A stretch of 20,020 nt of DNA from a virus: positions 1 to 20,020 of the IMG/VR virus record IMGVR_UViG_3300034018_001188; one strand, written 5' to 3'. The position numbers and the translations under genes are program-made. How positions within the stretch are numbered: the stretch's first letter is position 1; every line of letters begins with the position of its first letter. Below the pieces are notes generated by a model. The model did not search any database. It was not told the DNA's origin and saw only the letters and a program-made list of their open reading frames with translations. Shown piece after piece: positions 2,717-19,347 of this stretch.

Positions 2717-5700
2717 ATGCCTAAATATAGAGTTTTTCAAGAATCAACTGGCGTTACTCTTGATCTTGAAGGCGACAAAGCGCCAGATCTTGATGATATT
2801 AATAGAGCATTTGCTTTTTATGGCCAACAAAAGTATCCGAATGCTCCGGTACTTCAGGCTCCCCCGAGTCTGTACGAGCAGGCCAAGGCTGTTGCCCCTT
2901 CTTTGGCCCGTGTTGCCGCTCCTCTGGCATTCGGAAGGCCGATGCCTGAGGACATTGCGACGACCGGAAGAGTGGTCCAACAAGGTGCAGAAGCTGTTCG
3001 CAGGCTGACCGGTGGTCGTGAAAAGCCCGAAGAGCTGCTGCAAGGCGCTTCTCAAATCGAGAGAGAAGGCATCTTAGCTCTTGGCTCAGCATCCCCAGAA
3101 AAGCGGGAACTTGCTGCCTCGCTTGGTGGCAGATTGGGTGAGGTCGTCAGCGAATACACTCCGATTCCTGAATCCGTAACTCGTCCCGTCGGACAGGTGG
3201 CAGGTCAGGTTTCGGCTGACCTTTTGTCCCCAATGAATCTGATGAGCCTCGGCATTGCCGGTGCCGCTCGTCAGGCTTCTCGCATTCCGCAGTTGGTTGC
3301 AGGTGCTGAGTTTGCAGAGACAACCACGCCTTCAGCGGTTCGTGCTGCTCAGATTGCTGATCTTCGTAGAGCTTCAGGAAGCGGTTCTTTTCCTGAAGCG
3401 TTGCAAAAAGAGTTAATGGAATTCCCCGGGGGACATCGATTAAAAGACTCTGCAAATGCTGTAGAACAAGTTGGCCGACTGGTTGCACCTGCACTGCTTC
3501 CTCCAATTGCGCTTGGAGCAGCAGAGTCCACAGGGATGGCTCTCCAAACCGTCGTTGATCCGAATGCTACTCCTGAGCAGAAACTGAAGGCTTCGCTTGA
3601 AGCTGGTGTTGGAATGCTGTTTTCCGCAGGTCTTGGCGCTCAGGTTGGCAAGACCTTCGGGATGAAGCGCGGAGTCACTCAGGCTCAGGTGCTTGAGCAA
3701 TTGGCGTCACGCAAGCAGACCGTTGGAGAGGCCATCAGCAAAGTTGAGGGTTTGCTCAACGAGATGGATCAGATTGTTCCGGTTGAGAATCTTAGGGATC
3801 AGTTCCGGAGATTCACTTCGGAAATGAATCCTGATGAACCTTTCATCTTTCGACAGGAACCGGTTGGAGAAGGGCCTCGCTCTCGCTCTCGTTTTGTTAC
3901 AGAGGAAGAGCGGGCTGCTGTTGCTCAAGAGCAGGCTTTCCAAGAAGCCAACCAACAGGCGGCACTTGAAAAAGCCGCAGAGGTATCTGGAACACCGCTC
4001 AAGACAGCCGAGCAATTGTTCCGCGAGCGACAAGAAGCAAACAAGCCTCCGGTAATTCCAAGCGAAGAAGTCCCTCCAGCGGTTCGTGATTACATCGATG
4101 AAGCTCAGGCTCGTAGAGATGCAGCCGCGGCAGCTCGTGGACAATTCATAACATCTGAAGCAGTAGATCTCCTTGCTAAGGTCGATTCCGGAGGTGTTCC
4201 CGCTCAGATTACTCGCAATTTGGAGCGAATCGCAAACGAGAATGGAATCACTGTTACACGGCAAGATACTCCAAATACGGTAATCGAAAAACTTCGCAGA
4301 AAAGGGTCTGGATACGCCCGTGAAGTTGGACAGCCCCCTGTCATTCAGGCTGCTGCTCCTGAAGGAACTCCCCTTCGATCCACTGAGGAGATGCTCGCTG
4401 AACGACTTCGTGTTCGTGATGAGCGGATCGCTGCGGAGCAAGAAGCTGCGCGTCCTGAAACCCTTAGGGGCGCTGAGGAAATACAGGCTCAACGCTCGGC
4501 TGAACGACAGGCTCAAAGAGAACGAGCTGCTGCCATTCGATCAGCTCTTGGTCGCCGAGAACTGACTGTCGAAGAGTTGATGAGAGAGGAGGCCGATCAA
4601 CCGCGCCCTTCTGCCCGTCAGATTGCCGAAGAGCTGCGCCGACAGATCGAGCCTCGCATCGAAGCACCTGAGGTTCTCACCGAACCCAGACGCGCTCGTG
4701 AAGGTGGCCTACTGCCTCAACGAGAGGCTATCGTTGAAAAGGCTGTTCAAGAAGGCACCCCGCTTCGCAGAGCCGAGGACATCATGGCTGAAAGGCTCCG
4801 CGCTCGTGATGAGCGTGTGGCCGCTGAACAGCAGAGGATTGCGGCAGAGCAGGCTCGCGTTCCTCTTGAAACTGCCAGTGAGAAACTCGCTCGTGCTCTC
4901 CAATCCAGAGACCGTCGCCTTGCCGCGGAAGCCGCCGCGGAAGCATTGGAGTCAGGAGCTGCTCGTGGCGAATCCGTAAGAGTTACCAGGGCCACGGTCG
5001 AGAAGTTGCTTCGGATAAAAGAGAAGCCGGCAGGCCAAGCCGTTGCTGAGGAAACGATCTTCAACGAGGTCTGGAACAAGGCGCTCGAAGAGACCCAAGG
5101 TAAATCAAAAAGACCTGAATGGAATGGAACAAAACAAGTTCCAGAAATGTGGAAATACAATACAGAGGGAGAAAGGTTTGGATTAGATGTTGAATACAAA
5201 TTAAGCCCAGTCAAAAAGATACCGACATCTGATATCAAATCAGGTGAATTTGATTCTCCATTAACAGGGGATCAAGTTAATGATATAGCCGCTATTCTTA
5301 AATCGGATCCAAATCAAATACCGCCTATTGTTGTTGAAATAAACAAATCTGGTCAATTGGTGGTTGTTGATGGAGAGCATAGATTTGGAGCTGCAAATGC
5401 AATTGGATTGAAAGAGATTCCAGTCAGAGTTGCGATACGATCAGATTTACCAACAAAACAATACGCTGAAAAAGCAAATCAAATTGCCAAAAAACTTGAA
5501 GGTTTAAGAGTTAAAGTCGAGCCCGGTGTCGGTGCAAACCCGTTCCCTCAACTGATGGGAGCGGCTTGGAACGGTGCGTTGTCGGTCGCCCAAGCTGTGA
5601 TTCGCGCTGGCGGATCTGTGGCCGACGGTGTTGCCGCGGGAATCCGCTACGCCAAGCAGAACTTCAAGGGCAAGTTCGATGAGGCTGATTTTACCGCTCA

Positions 5701-8284
5701 ACTTCAACGTGTCATAGAACGTCCGTCCGCAGTTCAAGTGCCTGAAGGAATGGCGGCCAGACGCTTTGCGGAACGAGCTGCCGCTTCTCCTGGCATTCCT
5801 CCGAAAATTCGAGAGGCAATTGCTGCTTCTCCAGAAGCCTCTTACGTCAGGCAAAACCTCAAGCAGACCGAGCAACAGGCTGGCGTGAAGACGGTTGATG
5901 AACTGTACGCGGATATATCCGATCCAGAATCTAACACCAGCACGGCATCATCCGTAGAACTGATCAAGAGACAGATTGCGGCAGGCGAAGCTCAAGATGT
6001 TGTAGATAAGACTCTTAAGCTGGCAAAGCGTGGTACCACAATGGGCCAGCTAATCAACCAGATGAAGCTTCTCAAGTCGGGAACTAGAGAAGGAATAATC
6101 TATCTGGTTACCAAGTCGATGGAGGAGAACGGAAGAACGCCAGACGGCCCACAGCTCAAAAAGCTCGGAGACCTAATGGATGTTTTTAGGTCTACAAGTG
6201 ACATCGCCCAGAACGCTGAGTTGAAGTGGAAAGAGGCTTCAAACCTTGGAGACAATACGGCGATCGACGCAGCTTTCAACGAGCTGCAATTGGCCGACTC
6301 TGCCAAGAACCAAGCAGACGCTGAACTCACGAAGCAAATTTCACGGATGAATCCGTCTTTGCTTCCAGACCTGTATGTTGCACTGGTTCAGGGATCCGTC
6401 CAATCGACTCTTTCTCTGGCTGGAAACCTGTACGGAAACATTGTTAATAGGCCAATGTCGGAGCTTTCAGCGATGGTCGCAAAGCTGGTCGATTCGTCTC
6501 TGTTTCGTGGAAGGCTTGGAAATACTTACAACCCTAGAGCAAGGGCTTTTGATCGCATCAACAGCTTGAGAAAGTCTGTTCCAGAGGCTTTTCAAATTCT
6601 CAAAAAGGGATCAGAGGCGGCTGCCTACGAACCCGGTTTTGACATGGGAAATCCCCTCAATTTCACGAGGGCTGCAAGAAACGTATACGATCGGATTTTC
6701 AACGGTGCCAATGACATCCCTCTTTTGAGGAATGCTGTTGAAATGACTCTTGGTGCTTATCCTGACACCATATTTAGAATCAACCAAAGCGTTGATAACG
6801 TGTTCAAGTCGGCTGACAGAGCTGCTTTGATTCGTGAGGTGGGTCAAAGACGCGGCCTGACAGACGCTCAGATCAAGGTCGCCCAAAGGAACCCCAAGCT
6901 CTACGAGATCAGCAACAGGGAGTTTGAAAAAGGCGTCAAAGGGTTCACCGCGGATGACCTTGGGTACATTGATTTTGAGGCGGCTAGGTCTGTGTTTCAG
7001 CAGGAAAACGCTGCCACTCAATTTGCCTCTATGGTGAATCGGTTCGTGAAAGAGAAAGGTGGCCCTGTTTTCTACATCCCATACAGGACTCTCTTCTTAT
7101 TCCAGAAGACCCCCATCAACGTCGCAGCCGAAGCTCTGTCATTCATGCCTTCTGGTTTGGTCAGAAGGTGGGGACAGATGGCTCCGAGGGAAAAGAACTT
7201 GGCGGCTGTGAAGCTGACGATTGGGGCGATGCTCATCACCGCTTACAATCAGTTGTACGACAAAGGGATCATCACCCCCAACCTCGACACTCCTGGTGAG
7301 ACGAACAAGGCCCGCGAGTTGGCCAAGTCTGGTGGCGTCATGCCTCCAGGAACTCTCAACGTCAGCGGCTTGGTTCGATATGTTAACGGCGAAGATCCGA
7401 GCTTCCAGCCCGGTGATAACGTGCGTGATCTCGCCAAGTTTGGAACATCGGGCGCGATTGGCATGATGGTTGGCACTGCCCGAAGGATTCGTGAAAGAAG
7501 TCGAACCAGCGATCCTGATTGGCTGACGATTGCAGGAGGAACAGTGTTGAGTGCCGCAAACTTCATTCAACAGCAAGGATTCCTTGATGGTGTCAGCGGA
7601 ATGATCAAAGCCCTGTCCCAGGAGGGTGGAGCTTCGATGGAAAGCCTCGTGAAGAAGTACCTTTCGACGGCAACATCACCGGTTCAACCTGCGATCCTCG
7701 GGAGTTTGATGCGAGCCGAACGTGAGTTTGTTCCGGTTACCGGCGGCGAAGGTGTAATCAAAGACCTGACCAACGAACTCAACCAAAAATACGCCGCTCT
7801 TCCGTTTTTCGAAGGAAAGCAGCTTCCTCTTCGGCGCGATCTTTGGGGAGATCCAGTCAGGCAGACCCCAAAGAGCGAGAACCCTTGGGTTTACAACTTC
7901 CTTGAGCCTTGGAAGAGCCGAGAAATCGATGCTGATCCGCTCAATGCCTCGATCTATCGGGTGTGGCGCAGGACCGCTGATAATCGGGCGATTCCATCGA
8001 TTCCGAATCCTCAGATCACCTACGGTAAAACCAGTTTTGAGAAGCTGTCTCCTGAGCAGTTCGACCGCTACGCCCAACTCGTTGGTTTCTACCGGCGCAA
8101 ATTGGCTGAGGAGGTCTACATGACCAATGACTATCGGGAAGGATCAGATGACGCTCGCATCGCGCTTCTAAACCGAGCCTACGATCGTGGCATCAACATC
8201 GGAAAGTACCGTTTCCTTCAGGAATTGAGGAAATCTGGCCAGACTTTGACGCCAGTCGCACCCCGCCGAGGCTTCGAGGAATAA
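2717..8284 (+). CDS. Giant multidomain internal virion (ejection/polyvalent-type) protein with embedded ParB-like domain
   Basis: The protein has 1855 residues. Residues 1-35 (YRVFQESTG..LDLEGD..PDLDDINRAF) match a short N-terminal module common in phage tail/internal proteins (TG.T..LEGD.PPTE.d+..+F). Residues about 45-340 contain Ala/Gly-rich amphipathic stretches. Residues about 390-770 are a charged Arg/Glu/Ala helical region with three related GTPL(K/R) repeats. Residues about 796-935 hold a ParB-like domain (VVVDGEHRFG at 882-891) in AT-rich DNA. Residues about 1100-1640 resemble the conserved C-terminal region of large podovirus internal proteins, including a Q.T.SLAGN..GN+ stretch and FYIPYRTLFLFQKTP. 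Such proteins are generally ejected into the host with the DNA; that role is inferred here from family resemblance and size. The ATG follows the upstream stop by one base. Confidence 0.75.
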   Translation: MPKYRVFQESTGVTLDLEGDKAPDLDDINRAFAFYGQQKYPNAPVLQAPPSLYEQAKAVAPSLARVAAPLAFGRPMPEDIATTGRVVQQGAEAVRRLTGGREKPEELLQGASQIEREGILALGSASPEKRELAASLGGRLGEVVSEYTPIPESVTRPVGQVAGQVSADLLSPMNLMSLGIAGAARQASRIPQLVAGAEFAETTTPSAVRAAQIADLRRASGSGSFPEALQKELMEFPGGHRLKDSANAVEQVGRLVAPALLPPIALGAAESTGMALQTVVDPNATPEQKLKASLEAGVGMLFSAGLGAQVGKTFGMKRGVTQAQVLEQLASRKQTVGEAISKVEGLLNEMDQIVPVENLRDQFRRFTSEMNPDEPFIFRQEPVGEGPRSRSRFVTEEERAAVAQEQAFQEANQQAALEKAAEVSGTPLKTAEQLFRERQEANKPPVIPSEEVPPAVRDYIDEAQARRDAAAAARGQFITSEAVDLLAKVDSGGVPAQITRNLERIANENGITVTRQDTPNTVIEKLRRKGSGYAREVGQPPVIQAAAPEGTPLRSTEEMLAERLRVRDERIAAEQEAARPETLRGAEEIQAQRSAERQAQRERAAAIRSALGRRELTVEELMREEADQPRPSARQIAEELRRQIEPRIEAPEVLTEPRRAREGGLLPQREAIVEKAVQEGTPLRRAEDIMAERLRARDERVAAEQQRIAAEQARVPLETASEKLARALQSRDRRLAAEAAAEALESGAARGESVRVTRATVEKLLRIKEKPAGQAVAEETIFNEVWNKALEETQGKSKRPEWNGTKQVPEMWKYNTEGERFGLDVEYKLSPVKKIPTSDIKSGEFDSPLTGDQVNDIAAILKSDPNQIPPIVVEINKSGQLVVVDGEHRFGAANAIGLKEIPVRVAIRSDLPTKQYAEKANQIAKKLEGLRVKVEPGVGANPFPQLMGAAWNGALSVAQAVIRAGGSVADGVAAGIRYAKQNFKGKFDEADFTAQLQRVIERPSAVQVPEGMAARRFAERAAASPGIPPKIREAIAASPEASYVRQNLKQTEQQAGVKTVDELYADISDPESNTSTASSVELIKRQIAAGEAQDVVDKTLKLAKRGTTMGQLINQMKLLKSGTREGIIYLVTKSMEENGRTPDGPQLKKLGDLMDVFRSTSDIAQNAELKWKEASNLGDNTAIDAAFNELQLADSAKNQADAELTKQISRMNPSLLPDLYVALVQGSVQSTLSLAGNLYGNIVNRPMSELSAMVAKLVDSSLFRGRLGNTYNPRARAFDRINSLRKSVPEAFQILKKGSEAAAYEPGFDMGNPLNFTRAARNVYDRIFNGANDIPLLRNAVEMTLGAYPDTIFRINQSVDNVFKSADRAALIREVGQRRGLTDAQIKVAQRNPKLYEISNREFEKGVKGFTADDLGYIDFEAARSVFQQENAATQFASMVNRFVKEKGGPVFYIPYRTLFLFQKTPINVAAEALSFMPSGLVRRWGQMAPREKNLAAVKLTIGAMLITAYNQLYDKGIITPNLDTPGETNKARELAKSGGVMPPGTLNVSGLVRYVNGEDPSFQPGDNVRDLAKFGTSGAIGMMVGTARRIRERSRTSDPDWLTIAGGTVLSAANFIQQQGFLDGVSGMIKALSQEGGASMESLVKKYLSTATSPVQPAILGSLMRAEREFVPVTGGEGVIKDLTNELNQKYAALPFFEGKQLPLRRDLWGDPVRQTPKSENPWVYNFLEPWKSREIDADPLNASIYRVWRRTADNRAIPSIPNPQITYGKTSFEKLSPEQFDRYAQLVGFYRRKLAEEVYMTNDYREGSDDARIALLNRAYDRGINIGKYRFLQELRKSGQTLTPVAPRRGFEE
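3989..4831 (+). repeat. Three diverged GTPL-type repeats inside the giant virion protein
   Basis: The motif GTPL(K/R)..E.....ER occurs at residues 425-438 (nt 3989-4030), 549-575 (nt 4361-4441) and 679-705 (nt 4751-4831). The last two copies are identical at 20 of 27 positions (EGTPLR...MAERLR.RDER.AAEQ) and are 130 residues apart. The first copy is shorter and more diverged. This suggests segmental duplication in the charged helical part of the protein, or a short linear motif used several times. Confidence 0.7.
5101..5519 (+). other. AT-rich island encoding a ParB/Srx-like domain within the giant gene
   Basis: The reading frame runs unbroken through this block, but composition changes sharply. 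Three 60-nt samples inside it are 32-35% GC, whereas samples at 4861-4920 and 5581-5640 are about 55% and 70%. The encoded residues (about 796-935) have the order expected of a ParB N-terminal-like fold: IPTSDIKSGEFDSP, then an IPPIVVEI strand, then VVVDGEHRFGAANAIGLKEI with the signature DG.HR..Aa...G, then VRV. This motif binds or hydrolyses nucleotides in ParB/sulfiredoxin relatives. The composition break indicates that the domain was acquired as a unit. Confidence 0.8.
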
Positions 8285-15162: not shown

Positions 15163-15344
15163 CCATCGAAGAAATGAGAACCATTGACGGAGTGAAGACT
15201 TGGAAAGAGCTGGAGGAGGCCAAGGAGCGCATCGCGCACTTGGAGGCAGCCATCCGATCCACACTCGAAGCCAATCGGCATCTGGCCGACGGAGACAACT
15301 GCACCCTGATCGAACTCAAGAAAGTCCTACCAGACTACCCATGA
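15159..15344 (+). CDS. 61-residue helical phage protein (LADGDNCTL motif)
   Basis: Residues 15-45 form a charged helix (TWKELEEAKERIAHLEAAIR). It is followed by the loop LADGDNCTLIELKKVLPDYP, a motif (LADGD.CTL..L) common near the end of small tailed-phage proteins of unknown role. GGAG (15147-15150) lies eight bases before the ATG, which overlaps the previous stop. The stop overlaps the next ATG. Confidence 0.68.
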   Translation: MTIEEMRTIDGVKTWKELEEAKERIAHLEAAIRSTLEANRHLADGDNCTLIELKKVLPDYP

Positions 15345-15895: not shown

Positions 15896-16141
15896 ATGAC
15901 GATACTTCAACAATTGGGGTTGACCAAGGAGTCCATGTCTCGCATGGTGGGCCATGTCACTCCGTTCAAGGATCCGAACCCTCGGATCAACCGGCGGTGG
16001 CCGGCTGTTCCAACCGAGATCCGGGATGCCATCCTGAAAGAGGACAAGTCACGCACTTACCCAGAGTTGTCCAAAAAGTACAACATCTCACTGTCATGTG
16101 TATGGAACATCAAGAACAGCAAAAACAACAAACAACAATAG
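15896..16141 (+). CDS. 81-residue helix-turn-helix protein
   Basis: The ATG is preceded by AGAAGGGG (15885-15892). Residues 38-76 contain a homeodomain/Psq-like HTH: VPTEIRDAILKEDKSRTYPE followed by LSKKYNISLSCVWNIKNSK, where ISLSCVWNIK is the recognition-helix pattern. The N-terminus (TILQQLGLTKESMSRMVGHV) is helical. It probably binds DNA as a small regulator. Its last 46 nt overlap the zinc-peptide gene in another frame. Two genes downstream lies a second HTH protein, so this stretch is a small regulatory cluster. Confidence 0.68.
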   Translation: MTILQQLGLTKESMSRMVGHVTPFKDPNPRINRRWPAVPTEIRDAILKEDKSRTYPELSKKYNISLSCVWNIKNSKNNKQQ

Positions 16142-16281
16142 AGGAACTACAACGATGGAAACAGTTATGTCACGAATTGGCCGATTGCTTGGGATGCGGA
16201 TGCATAATCAAGCACGGCCTGTGTGTTCAGTGCCACAAAGCACAGAAGAGGTACCGAGCAATACAAACACCTTTGAGGTAG
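16096..16281 (+). CDS. 61-residue small zinc-binding protein overlapping its neighbours
   Basis: The sequence MCMEHQEQQKQQTTIEELQR leads into a helix (WKQLCHELADC) and then CLGCGCIIKHGLCVQCHKAQ and KRYRAI. The C-x2-C-x-C...H-x2-C-x2-C spacing looks like a real zinc site, and the closing C..A..RYR is common in small phage proteins. It starts inside the HTH gene (46-nt overlap), and its TAG overlaps the GTG of the next gene (TAGTG). The competing frame over 16155-16281 (extending the next gene upstream) has no domain-like features, so I prefer this one. No SD site precedes the ATG. Confidence 0.6.
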   Translation: MCMEHQEQQKQQTTIEELQRWKQLCHELADCLGCGCIIKHGLCVQCHKAQKRYRAIQTPLR

Positions 16282-16694
16282 TGGCAGTTAGTAAGAAGAA
16301 GAAGGACAAGAAGCGAATATACATGAAACTCAGCGATTCAATCGATCAAGTTAACAAGCTGCGATCAGAAGGGCTTACCTATCGTCTCATCGGTGAACAC
16401 TTCAAGATGTCCAAGCAGCGGGTCTATCAGATCATCAAAGCCGGTCAGCAGCGCGATATCGAGCGGGCCAAGTGGACCTACGGGCTCAGCGTTCGTAACG
16501 CTAAGCTGATGGACTTCCTCGAATTGAAATCCAAGGATGCCGCTCGCAACGCGGTTCTATCTAGGGAGATCGCTCCTTTCAAGTGGGACAACTTCGGTCG
16601 CAAGTCCTACACCGACCTCTGCCAATGGCTCGAAGTCAAACCGCTTGAATCATTCAGCGGTAAGAAGTGTCCTCACTGCGGCCTTCAAACATGA
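16281..16694 (+). CDS. Putative transcription factor: sigma-region-4-like HTH fused to an RNA polymerase alpha-CTD-like domain
   Basis: The protein has 137 residues from the GTG at 16281 (TAGTG overlap); an ATG at 16323 would give 123 residues and keep all domains. A Lys-rich N-terminus precedes an HTH (22-55: DQVNKLRSEGLTYRLIGEHF then KMSKQRVYQIIK) like sigma region 4. Residues 69-120 mirror the bacterial alpha-CTD: LSVRNA (69-74; E. coli LTVRSA) and NFGRKSYTDL (104-113; E. coli NLGKKSLTEI) at comparable spacing, which is the helix-hairpin-helix that binds UP elements and activators. A single CPHC (130-133) ends the protein. A promoter-directed regulator that touches host RNA polymerase or its DNA sites is inferred. 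The stop overlaps the next ATG. Confidence 0.72.
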   Translation: MAVSKKKKDKKRIYMKLSDSIDQVNKLRSEGLTYRLIGEHFKMSKQRVYQIIKAGQQRDIERAKWTYGLSVRNAKLMDFLELKSKDAARNAVLSREIAPFKWDNFGRKSYTDLCQWLEVKPLESFSGKKCPHCGLQT

Positions 16695-17484: not shown

Positions 17485-19347
17485 ATGACAACGCTCCTCG
17501 AACGAGCAGCGCTTTGGCTCGCCAAGGTGCCGCCAGCCATCTCCGGATCCGGAGGGCACTCACAAACCTACACCGCCGCCGTTGGCCTCGTCCACGGCTT
17601 CGGCCTGTCAGACACAGACGCATTCACACTCCTGTCCGATTGGAACCGCTCATGCCAGCCACCCTGGCAGGACCGCGAACTCCTCCACAAGATCCGACAG
17701 GCCAATGAGAAGTCCCACTCCAAGCCCCGCGGGCACCTCGCCAATTCCTCGGCAAGCAGCCCCGCTGAGCCATTGGACCTGACACGGGTGCGGTTCAGTA
17801 GGCCAAAGCCTGTGGAGCCTCCGCGGGTGCCAGAGGGGTCCGTGGAGCCGTCCGCGCCATCAAACCCGCCCGCAGCCCCCATACCGGCCTCGCACGACGC
17901 ATCGGAGTTCAAGCGGTTCCTCACATCCGCCTTCGCGGCCACCGAGGTGGTCTGCATCTGCGAGCAGGTCGAGGATGGTAGGCCAATCAGTGCCGGCTCA
18001 TTCCTTCCCCTCGAGGACTGGATCGCTCGCTTCGATGATCCCGAGTCCATCCTGTTCCGCAGCGACCGAACCGATGGCGTCTTCGTACGCATCAACCCGT
18101 TCAAGCCCAACCTCTACAGCGGCTCCGACAACGATGTCAGCGCGTACCGCCATGTCCTGGTGGAGTTCGATTCCAAACCCAAGGCCGAGCAGGAACAGCT
18201 CCTCCGCTCCTCGGGCCTCCCCATCAGCGTCCTCATCGACTCCGGTGGCAAGTCCATCCATGCATGGGTCCGTGTCGATGCCCCCAACCGCAAGGAATGG
18301 GACGCCCGCAGGGACCTCATCTACTCGGCAATCCCCGATGTCGATCCCAAGAACAAGAACCCATCGCGCTTCTCCCGGCTCCCCGGCTCCTGGCGGGGCG
18401 AAGAGAAGCAGAAGCTGTTGGACATCAACCTCGGCGCTCGATCATGGGAAGATTGGCTCACCGATCGGGAGACCGATGATGACAAGGCCACCGTCGTCAC
18501 GGTCAAAGACCTCATCAACTTCGACCCGGACAACGATCCGGATAACCTCATCGGCAAACGGTGGCTCACACGCGGCTCCTCCATGATCATCTCCGGTGGC
18601 ACCGGCATCGGGAAGTCATCCCTGATGATGCAGATCGTCATCCAGTGGGCCATGGGCAGGGACTTCTTCGGTGTTGCACCTGTACGACCACTCCGCATCG
18701 GTATCGTCCAAGCCGAGAACGACAAGGGCGACCTCGCCGAAGCATTCAAGGGCGTCATCAAGGGGCTGAACATGCACACGCCCGACATCCGCATCCTCCA
18801 AGAGAACCTGCACTTCCGCACCGAGGCCGTCCGCACCGGTGACGCATTCCTGGCCTACGCGAAGAGATTCATCACCCGATCGAAGCTCGATGTCATCATC
18901 GGTGACCCGCTCTTCTCCTACTTCGGGGGAGACCTCAGCGACCAGGGCGAGGTCAGCGTGTTCTTGAGGAACAAACTCCAGCCCATCCTCCACCAGACCA
19001 AGGTCGCTTGGATCTGGATGCACCACATCAGCAAAGCCCAGCGGAAGGACGGCGAGCCCATGACCACCATGGAACTCGCCCACTCCGGGTTCGGATCCAG
19101 CGAACTCGCCAACTGGGCTCGGGAGATCGCCGTCTTGGTAGAAGTAGGCCAGTCGAAGCCCCGACGGTTCCAACTGGCCTTCTGCAAGCGCGGATCAAGG
19201 CTGGATGCTAACTCACTACATCTTCAGCATTCTCCCAAGGATATTCTGTGGGAGCAGTGGAATCCCATGGTGATGACCGGGGCGCAACTGAAGGAGCCGC
19301 AGCCACCGAAGAAGCCTTCTTATCCTCGTCGAGGGCGTCGCGCATAG
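17485..19347 (+). CDS. Fused primase-helicase: PriCT-like module, AEP-type primase and RepA-like RecA ATPase
   Basis: The protein has 620 residues. Residues 1-85 form a PriCT-like module (KVPPAISGSGGHSQTYTAAV, LVHGFGLSDTDAF, SCQPPWQDRELLHKIRQA). A Pro/Ser linker (about 90-140) follows. Residues 140-310 look like an AEP primase: motif I VLVEFDS (E227, D229), motif II SGGKSIHAW with S257 and H259, and DVDPKNKNPSRFSRLPG (285-301). The C-terminal half is a RepA/RecA-type helicase: Walker A GGTGIGKS (371-378), Walker B LDVIIGDPL (468-476), then WIWMHHISKA. Such proteins prime and unwind DNA at a phage origin. Motif I has Glu where Asp is usual. The start is SD-less in a CA-rich leader. The last 140 nt overlap the convergent minus-strand gene. 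Confidence 0.85.
   Translation: MTTLLERAALWLAKVPPAISGSGGHSQTYTAAVGLVHGFGLSDTDAFTLLSDWNRSCQPPWQDRELLHKIRQANEKSHSKPRGHLANSSASSPAEPLDLTRVRFSRPKPVEPPRVPEGSVEPSAPSNPPAAPIPASHDASEFKRFLTSAFAATEVVCICEQVEDGRPISAGSFLPLEDWIARFDDPESILFRSDRTDGVFVRINPFKPNLYSGSDNDVSAYRHVLVEFDSKPKAEQEQLLRSSGLPISVLIDSGGKSIHAWVRVDAPNRKEWDARRDLIYSAIPDVDPKNKNPSRFSRLPGSWRGEEKQKLLDINLGARSWEDWLTDRETDDDKATVVTVKDLINFDPDNDPDNLIGKRWLTRGSSMIISGGTGIGKSSLMMQIVIQWAMGRDFFGVAPVRPLRIGIVQAENDKGDLAEAFKGVIKGLNMHTPDIRILQENLHFRTEAVRTGDAFLAYAKRFITRSKLDVIIGDPLFSYFGGDLSDQGEVSVFLRNKLQPILHQTKVAWIWMHHISKAQRKDGEPMTTMELAHSGFGSSELANWAREIAVLVEVGQSKPRRFQLAFCKRGSRLDANSLHLQHSPKDILWEQWNPMVMTGAQLKEPQPPKKPSYPRRGRRA

Follow-up and report, generated by a model that had tools for sequence, protein, structure and literature searches.

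A small phage protein pairing a helix-turn-helix with a remote relative of the RNA polymerase alpha-CTD

The window, by which we mean the whole stretch of DNA analysed, is a virus record of 20,020 bases with plus-strand genes throughout the region of interest. The gene under study lies in a conserved block whose order is an HTH-like protein, a CxxC protein, the HTH/alpha-CTD-like gene, three small genes and a primase-helicase. The features that the text draws on are as follows.

15896–16141, plus strand: small protein, HTH-like by eye, no PHROG hit; in the conserved block
16099–16281, plus strand: small CxxC...CxxC protein, the constrained frame in the overlap; in the conserved block
16281–16694, plus strand: open reading frame of interest, 137 aa counted from GTG
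16323 and 16155, plus strand: alternative conserved ATG starts of that frame, giving 123 aa and 179 aa respectively
16329–16445, plus strand: helix-turn-helix (HTH), residues 17–55, from sub-threshold Pfam matches, PHROGs, AF2 and Foldseek
16476–16634, plus strand: alpha-CTD-like (helix-hairpin-helix, HhH) domain, residues 66–118, from hhalign to RpoA CTDs with shuffled controls
16485–16502, plus strand: LSVRNA block, with R72 at the equivalent of E. coli R265
16503–16577, plus strand: variable middle of the alpha-CTD-like domain, residues 75–99, from sliding identity among L040, the window and L053
16590–16619, plus strand: NFGRKSYTDL hairpin block
16668–16682, plus strand: CPHCG at the C-terminus, CxHCG being invariant in the family alignment
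17485–19347, plus strand: RepA-like primase-helicase (phrog_2597, DNA primase, E 5e-55), end of the conserved block

All 10 relatives examined share this block, even L064 and L065, which have diverged furthest, and the genes to its left vary. Upstream of it lie RecT, an exonuclease, SSB, a helicase, a PAPS-reductase-like gene and RuvC. The frame at 15338–15886 matches phrog_3704, labelled ferredoxin (E 2e-16), a label that looks doubtful, and 2717–8284 encodes a 1855-aa protein that resembles large polyvalent phage proteins and is ParB-like around residues 830–925. Scans for promoters, terminators and repeats stayed at chance level and revealed no operator-like site, and no iteron-like direct repeats were found at the locus. 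In L041, L053 and many other relatives a perfect inverted repeat, GAGCAGGA-N9-TCCTGCTC, stands just upstream of the ATG of the MKL start; it is absent in the window and is possibly an operator or an RNA hairpin.

Translation of 16281–16694 places LSVRNA at residues 69–74, NFGRKSYTDL at 104–113 and CPHC at 130–133, exactly as the first-pass annotation of this DNA had given them, and the encoded protein is basic (pI ∼9.6–9.9). Conservation does not extend to the GTG at 16281, which is GTA in several relatives and also different in L041 and L064, and the coding signal across 16281–16322 is only modest. For that reason, translation begins either at the conserved ATG of 16323 or farther upstream within the same open frame, where another conserved ATG stands at 16155. 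All relatives examined keep two open frames across the 126 bases of 16155–16281, and the constrained frame in this overlap (16155–16280) is that of the upstream CxxC protein, not that of the HTH/alpha-CTD-like gene.

Relatives of the protein occur in about 50 IMG/VR contigs at 67–99% identity. Across the core of the gene, codon differences in its own frame comprise 1513 synonymous versus 1574 non-synonymous changes, compared with 256–383 synonymous versus ∼2800 non-synonymous in the other frames of the same core, and pairwise dN/dS across the whole core is 0.25–0.62. Since the synonymous excess is found in its own frame only and dN/dS is in this range, 16281–16694 is a genuine gene, subject to purifying selection. 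Two scans of genome contigs revealed no bacterial relative, tblastn of the window protein against isolate phages gave chance matches only, and PDB sequence searches returned nothing.

The N-terminal part had been described as an HTH of the sigma region 4 type. An HTH is present at residues 17–55, where AF2 places helices at 17–29, 34–40 and 45–67, but the region 4 assignment is not specific, as other HTH families do equally well. Sigma70_r4 (PF04545) reaches E 0.011 and 15.7 bits on the window protein, below its gathering score of 24.1, HTH_28 scores above it at 17 bits, and across the 21 members of the family alignment HTH_28, Sigma70_r4, HTH_7 and HTH_23 all give similar sub-threshold Pfam scores. 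PHROGs likewise returns a generic HTH family for this part, with the HTH proteins of phrog_686 and phrog_11376 matching the HTH segment only (E ∼2e-6). The Foldseek matches of the HTH model, SIRV1 ORF55 and DosR at ∼1.1 Å across 38–40 columns, support the fold class only, since their E-values are 1.4 and above. In L066 and L067 an HTH of this kind is joined to other partners, and the window protein has no sigma region 2. In RpoD, the −35 reading residues are R584, E585, R588 and Q589, at which the segment SKQRVYQI, placed by eye, gives K, Q, Y and Q; because E585 thus becomes Q and R588 becomes Y in the recognition helix, reading of a −35 element is not evident. The HTH is real but generic, and sigma region 4 is indistinguishable in it from other HTH classes.

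The further proposal that an RNA polymerase alpha-CTD-like domain follows the HTH holds for residues ∼66–118, through a profile-profile match and through conserved minor-groove contact residues, and it does not register in single-sequence searches. The Pfam profile of the domain (RNA_pol_A_CTD, PF03118) has no match in the window protein and no single family sequence passes its gathering score of 23.8 bits; 5 of the 21 relatives touch it weakly (best E 0.081, ∼12–13 bits), the displayed alignments being confined to its last 17 positions. For the profile-profile comparison, a family alignment was set against eight RpoA CTDs (E. coli, Streptomyces, Azospirillum, Acetoanaerobium, Bacteroides, Collinsella, Sinorhizobium and Pontibacillus), drawn from the rpoA genes of a plasmid collection and E. 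coli rpoA. With these, hhalign aligns 49 columns including both motifs at a probability of 89% and P 2.3e-6, or 84% when the whole protein is used, with P ranging from 2.3e-6 to 7.5e-6 over runs. A 15-sequence profile of RpoA plus seven phage alpha-CTD-like sequences gives 95.7% and P ∼1e-8, falling to 92% and P 6.3e-7 without L142, the inclusion of which is partly circular since L142 was itself found through the window protein's family.

The controls behave very differently from the real alignments. The score is 33.4 against a column-shuffled mean of 10.2 (sd 2.1, max 21.3, n = 300) with the RpoA-only profile, and 40.7 against 10.1 (sd 2.3, max 25.0, n = 400) with the larger one; none of 600 column-shuffled controls came close to the real family–RpoA score, reversed controls also fail, and the HTH half, used as a negative control against the alpha-CTD profile, reaches 0.3%. 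Multiplied by 24,736 Pfam families, P becomes ∼0.06 (RpoA only), 0.016 (without L142) or 0.0003 (all sequences). The matches run over 49–51 columns with both motifs in order, and identity to the RpoA CTDs is 24–27% across ∼50 columns. Since the scores lie far above the shuffles and the multiplied P is between 0.06 and 0.0003, the profiles support a kinship of residues ∼66–118 with the alpha-CTD that is real but remote.

The conserved residues point in the same direction. In E. coli alpha, R265, N294 and K298 contact the minor groove of UP elements (PMC5101437), and N268 is important for DNA binding (PMC11434276). In the window protein, R72 corresponds to R265, and N104, G106, K108 and S109 to N294, G296, K298 and S299, with all five invariant in the 21-member alignment. 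Of the DNA- and sigma-contacting residues that the first-pass annotation had singled out, the equivalents of R265 and K298 are therefore kept, but that of N268 is Lys and the 261 determinant, the sigma-contacting patch of alpha, is lost: positions V257, D258, D259 and E261 align to K, W, T and G. The motif spacing, reported as comparable, is indeed so, with 32 residues from R72 to N104 versus 29 from R265 to N294 in E. coli RpoA, a 3-residue insertion. Between the two blocks, L040 resembles the window outside residues 75–99 and L053 inside them by sliding identity, and this middle was apparently swapped between alleles by recombination. Fixed DNA-contact blocks around an exchanged middle would be expected of a DNA-binding domain more than of a surface kept for docking to polymerase.

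Structure prediction is less clear on the C-terminal part. For the whole protein, AF2 gives a confident HTH plus three helices, and the C-terminal model, made on L053, reaches pLDDT ∼80 and pTM 0.66 from 21 closely similar rows (Neff 1.4). Its helices start at the SVR and NFGRKS blocks, with one more between; the helices of the alpha-CTD likewise start at SVR and at the equivalent of NFGRKS. The first helix expected of an HhH, directly ahead of the hairpin, is missing from the model. Foldseek with this model against PDB and BFVD, a search from a shallow alignment (Neff 1.4) run without a known-alpha-CTD control, returned no alpha-CTD, and the whole model returned HTHs only. Since Foldseek does not recover it, the alpha-CTD fold is unconfirmed. 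The CPHC noted earlier after this domain is present at residues 130–133; together with C114, which is invariant in the family, CPHCG could form a metal-binding or dimer knuckle, with Zn-ribbon Pfam matches of the region at E ∼0.04–0.06 only.

Compared with bacterial RpoA, the window protein has the LSVR and NFGRKS blocks in order and the R265, N294 and K298 equivalents kept, and it differs in having no alpha-NTD, the 3-residue insertion, a Pro replacing the first HhH helix, Lys for N268, no 261 determinant and sub-gathering Pfam scores. Closer in architecture are proteins of ∼300–335 aa from phages and prophages (L142, L143, L146–L149, L090 and L098) that carry Sigma70_r4, RNA_pol_A_CTD and, in most, HTH_17. 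In the scanned L142, L090 and L098, from gut and other virus contigs, RNA_pol_A_CTD is found at E 4e-10 to 5e-15 and Sigma70_r4 at E 6e-5 to 3e-6, the latter above the Pfam cut-off in L090 and L098 and just below it in L142; L146–L149 look the same by eye, L147 and L148/L149 being near copies of L090 and L098. Like the window protein, L142, L146–L149, L090 and L098 place an HTH before an alpha-CTD in one protein on a virus contig; unlike it, most of them carry HTH_17 as an additional N-terminal domain, with a long linker, and the three scanned proteins have a clear alpha-CTD and a much stronger Sigma70_r4. An alignment of L142 to the window protein from residue 44 onward was rejected as HTH homology, as that part matches a linker in L142. 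The fusion thus has precedent in other phage contigs and is not unique; on sequence grounds, the window protein represents the HTH plus alpha-CTD design in a short and diverged form, the likeness being one of architecture.

Phage-encoded alpha-CTD-like domains outside RpoA also came from tblastn of isolate phages with a hand-written consensus alpha-CTD as query, in Bacillus phage Goe8, Microbacterium phage Mazun gp26 and Ruegeria phage V16. None has a matching HTH: Goe8 and Mazun have uncharacterised N-termini, and in V16 gp23 (L086:2932–3798) an N-terminal alpha-CTD-like domain is fused to a pyrophosphatase. A literature search found no paper on a phage fusion of an HTH with an alpha-CTD-like domain.

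Taken together, we consider it probable that this is a small, basic, bipartite DNA-binding protein that regulates the early/replication region of its own phage and acts apart from the host polymerase. The N-terminal HTH would grip the major groove and the alpha-CTD-like HhH would hold the minor groove next to it by way of R72, N104 and K108, probably as a dimer or in groups, and the protein may serve as a repressor, an activator or a nucleoid-like organiser of that region. Points against this reading are the failure to pass PF03118, the lack of an alpha-CTD among Foldseek matches and of a pre-hairpin helix, the Lys at N268 and the lack of an operator-like site.

It is unlikely that the protein instead redirects transcription, as the first-pass annotation had suggested, with the HTH placed around the −35 position of phage promoters and the host alpha-CTD contact supplied or replaced by the alpha-CTD-like domain, thereby recruiting host polymerase. 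The alpha-CTD homology would suit such a role, and the pairing of a Sigma70_r4-type HTH with a clear RNA_pol_A_CTD in the larger phage proteins suggests selection for a promoter-linked task, but the 261-determinant residues are replaced by K, W, T and G, the HTH is not sigma-4 specific and shows no evident −35 reading, and the window scan found no promoter-like excess. Similarly improbable is an accessory role in replication, in which the protein would mark or bend origin DNA for the primase-helicase just downstream with no control of transcription; the fixed block directly ahead of the primase in every relative examined, amid RecT, exonuclease, SSB, helicase and RuvC, is consistent with this, but the locus has no iteron-like direct repeats and we know of no alpha-CTD-type protein that acts as an origin binder. 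A further reading, to which the Foldseek result and the 17-position Pfam matches might point, takes the C-terminal part for a small helical domain of other descent that arrived at the two short motifs by convergence; it is very unlikely given an ordered match of 49–51 columns that shuffled and reversed controls fail to reproduce.

The findings suggest that phages took over the alpha-CTD module and now use it as an independent DNA-binding domain, too diverged for Pfam to recognise. A bolder reading, which we regard as quite unlikely, is that of a portable alpha-CTD: the HTH would anchor the protein at phage promoters and the CTD would take over the UP-element and activator docking role, so that host polymerase prefers phage genes. 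If that were true, the larger prophage proteins with Sigma70_r4 and alpha-CTD would represent more elaborate forms of it. Given its small size, the protein lends itself to asking directly whether a stand-alone alpha-CTD-like domain acts on DNA, polymerase or both.
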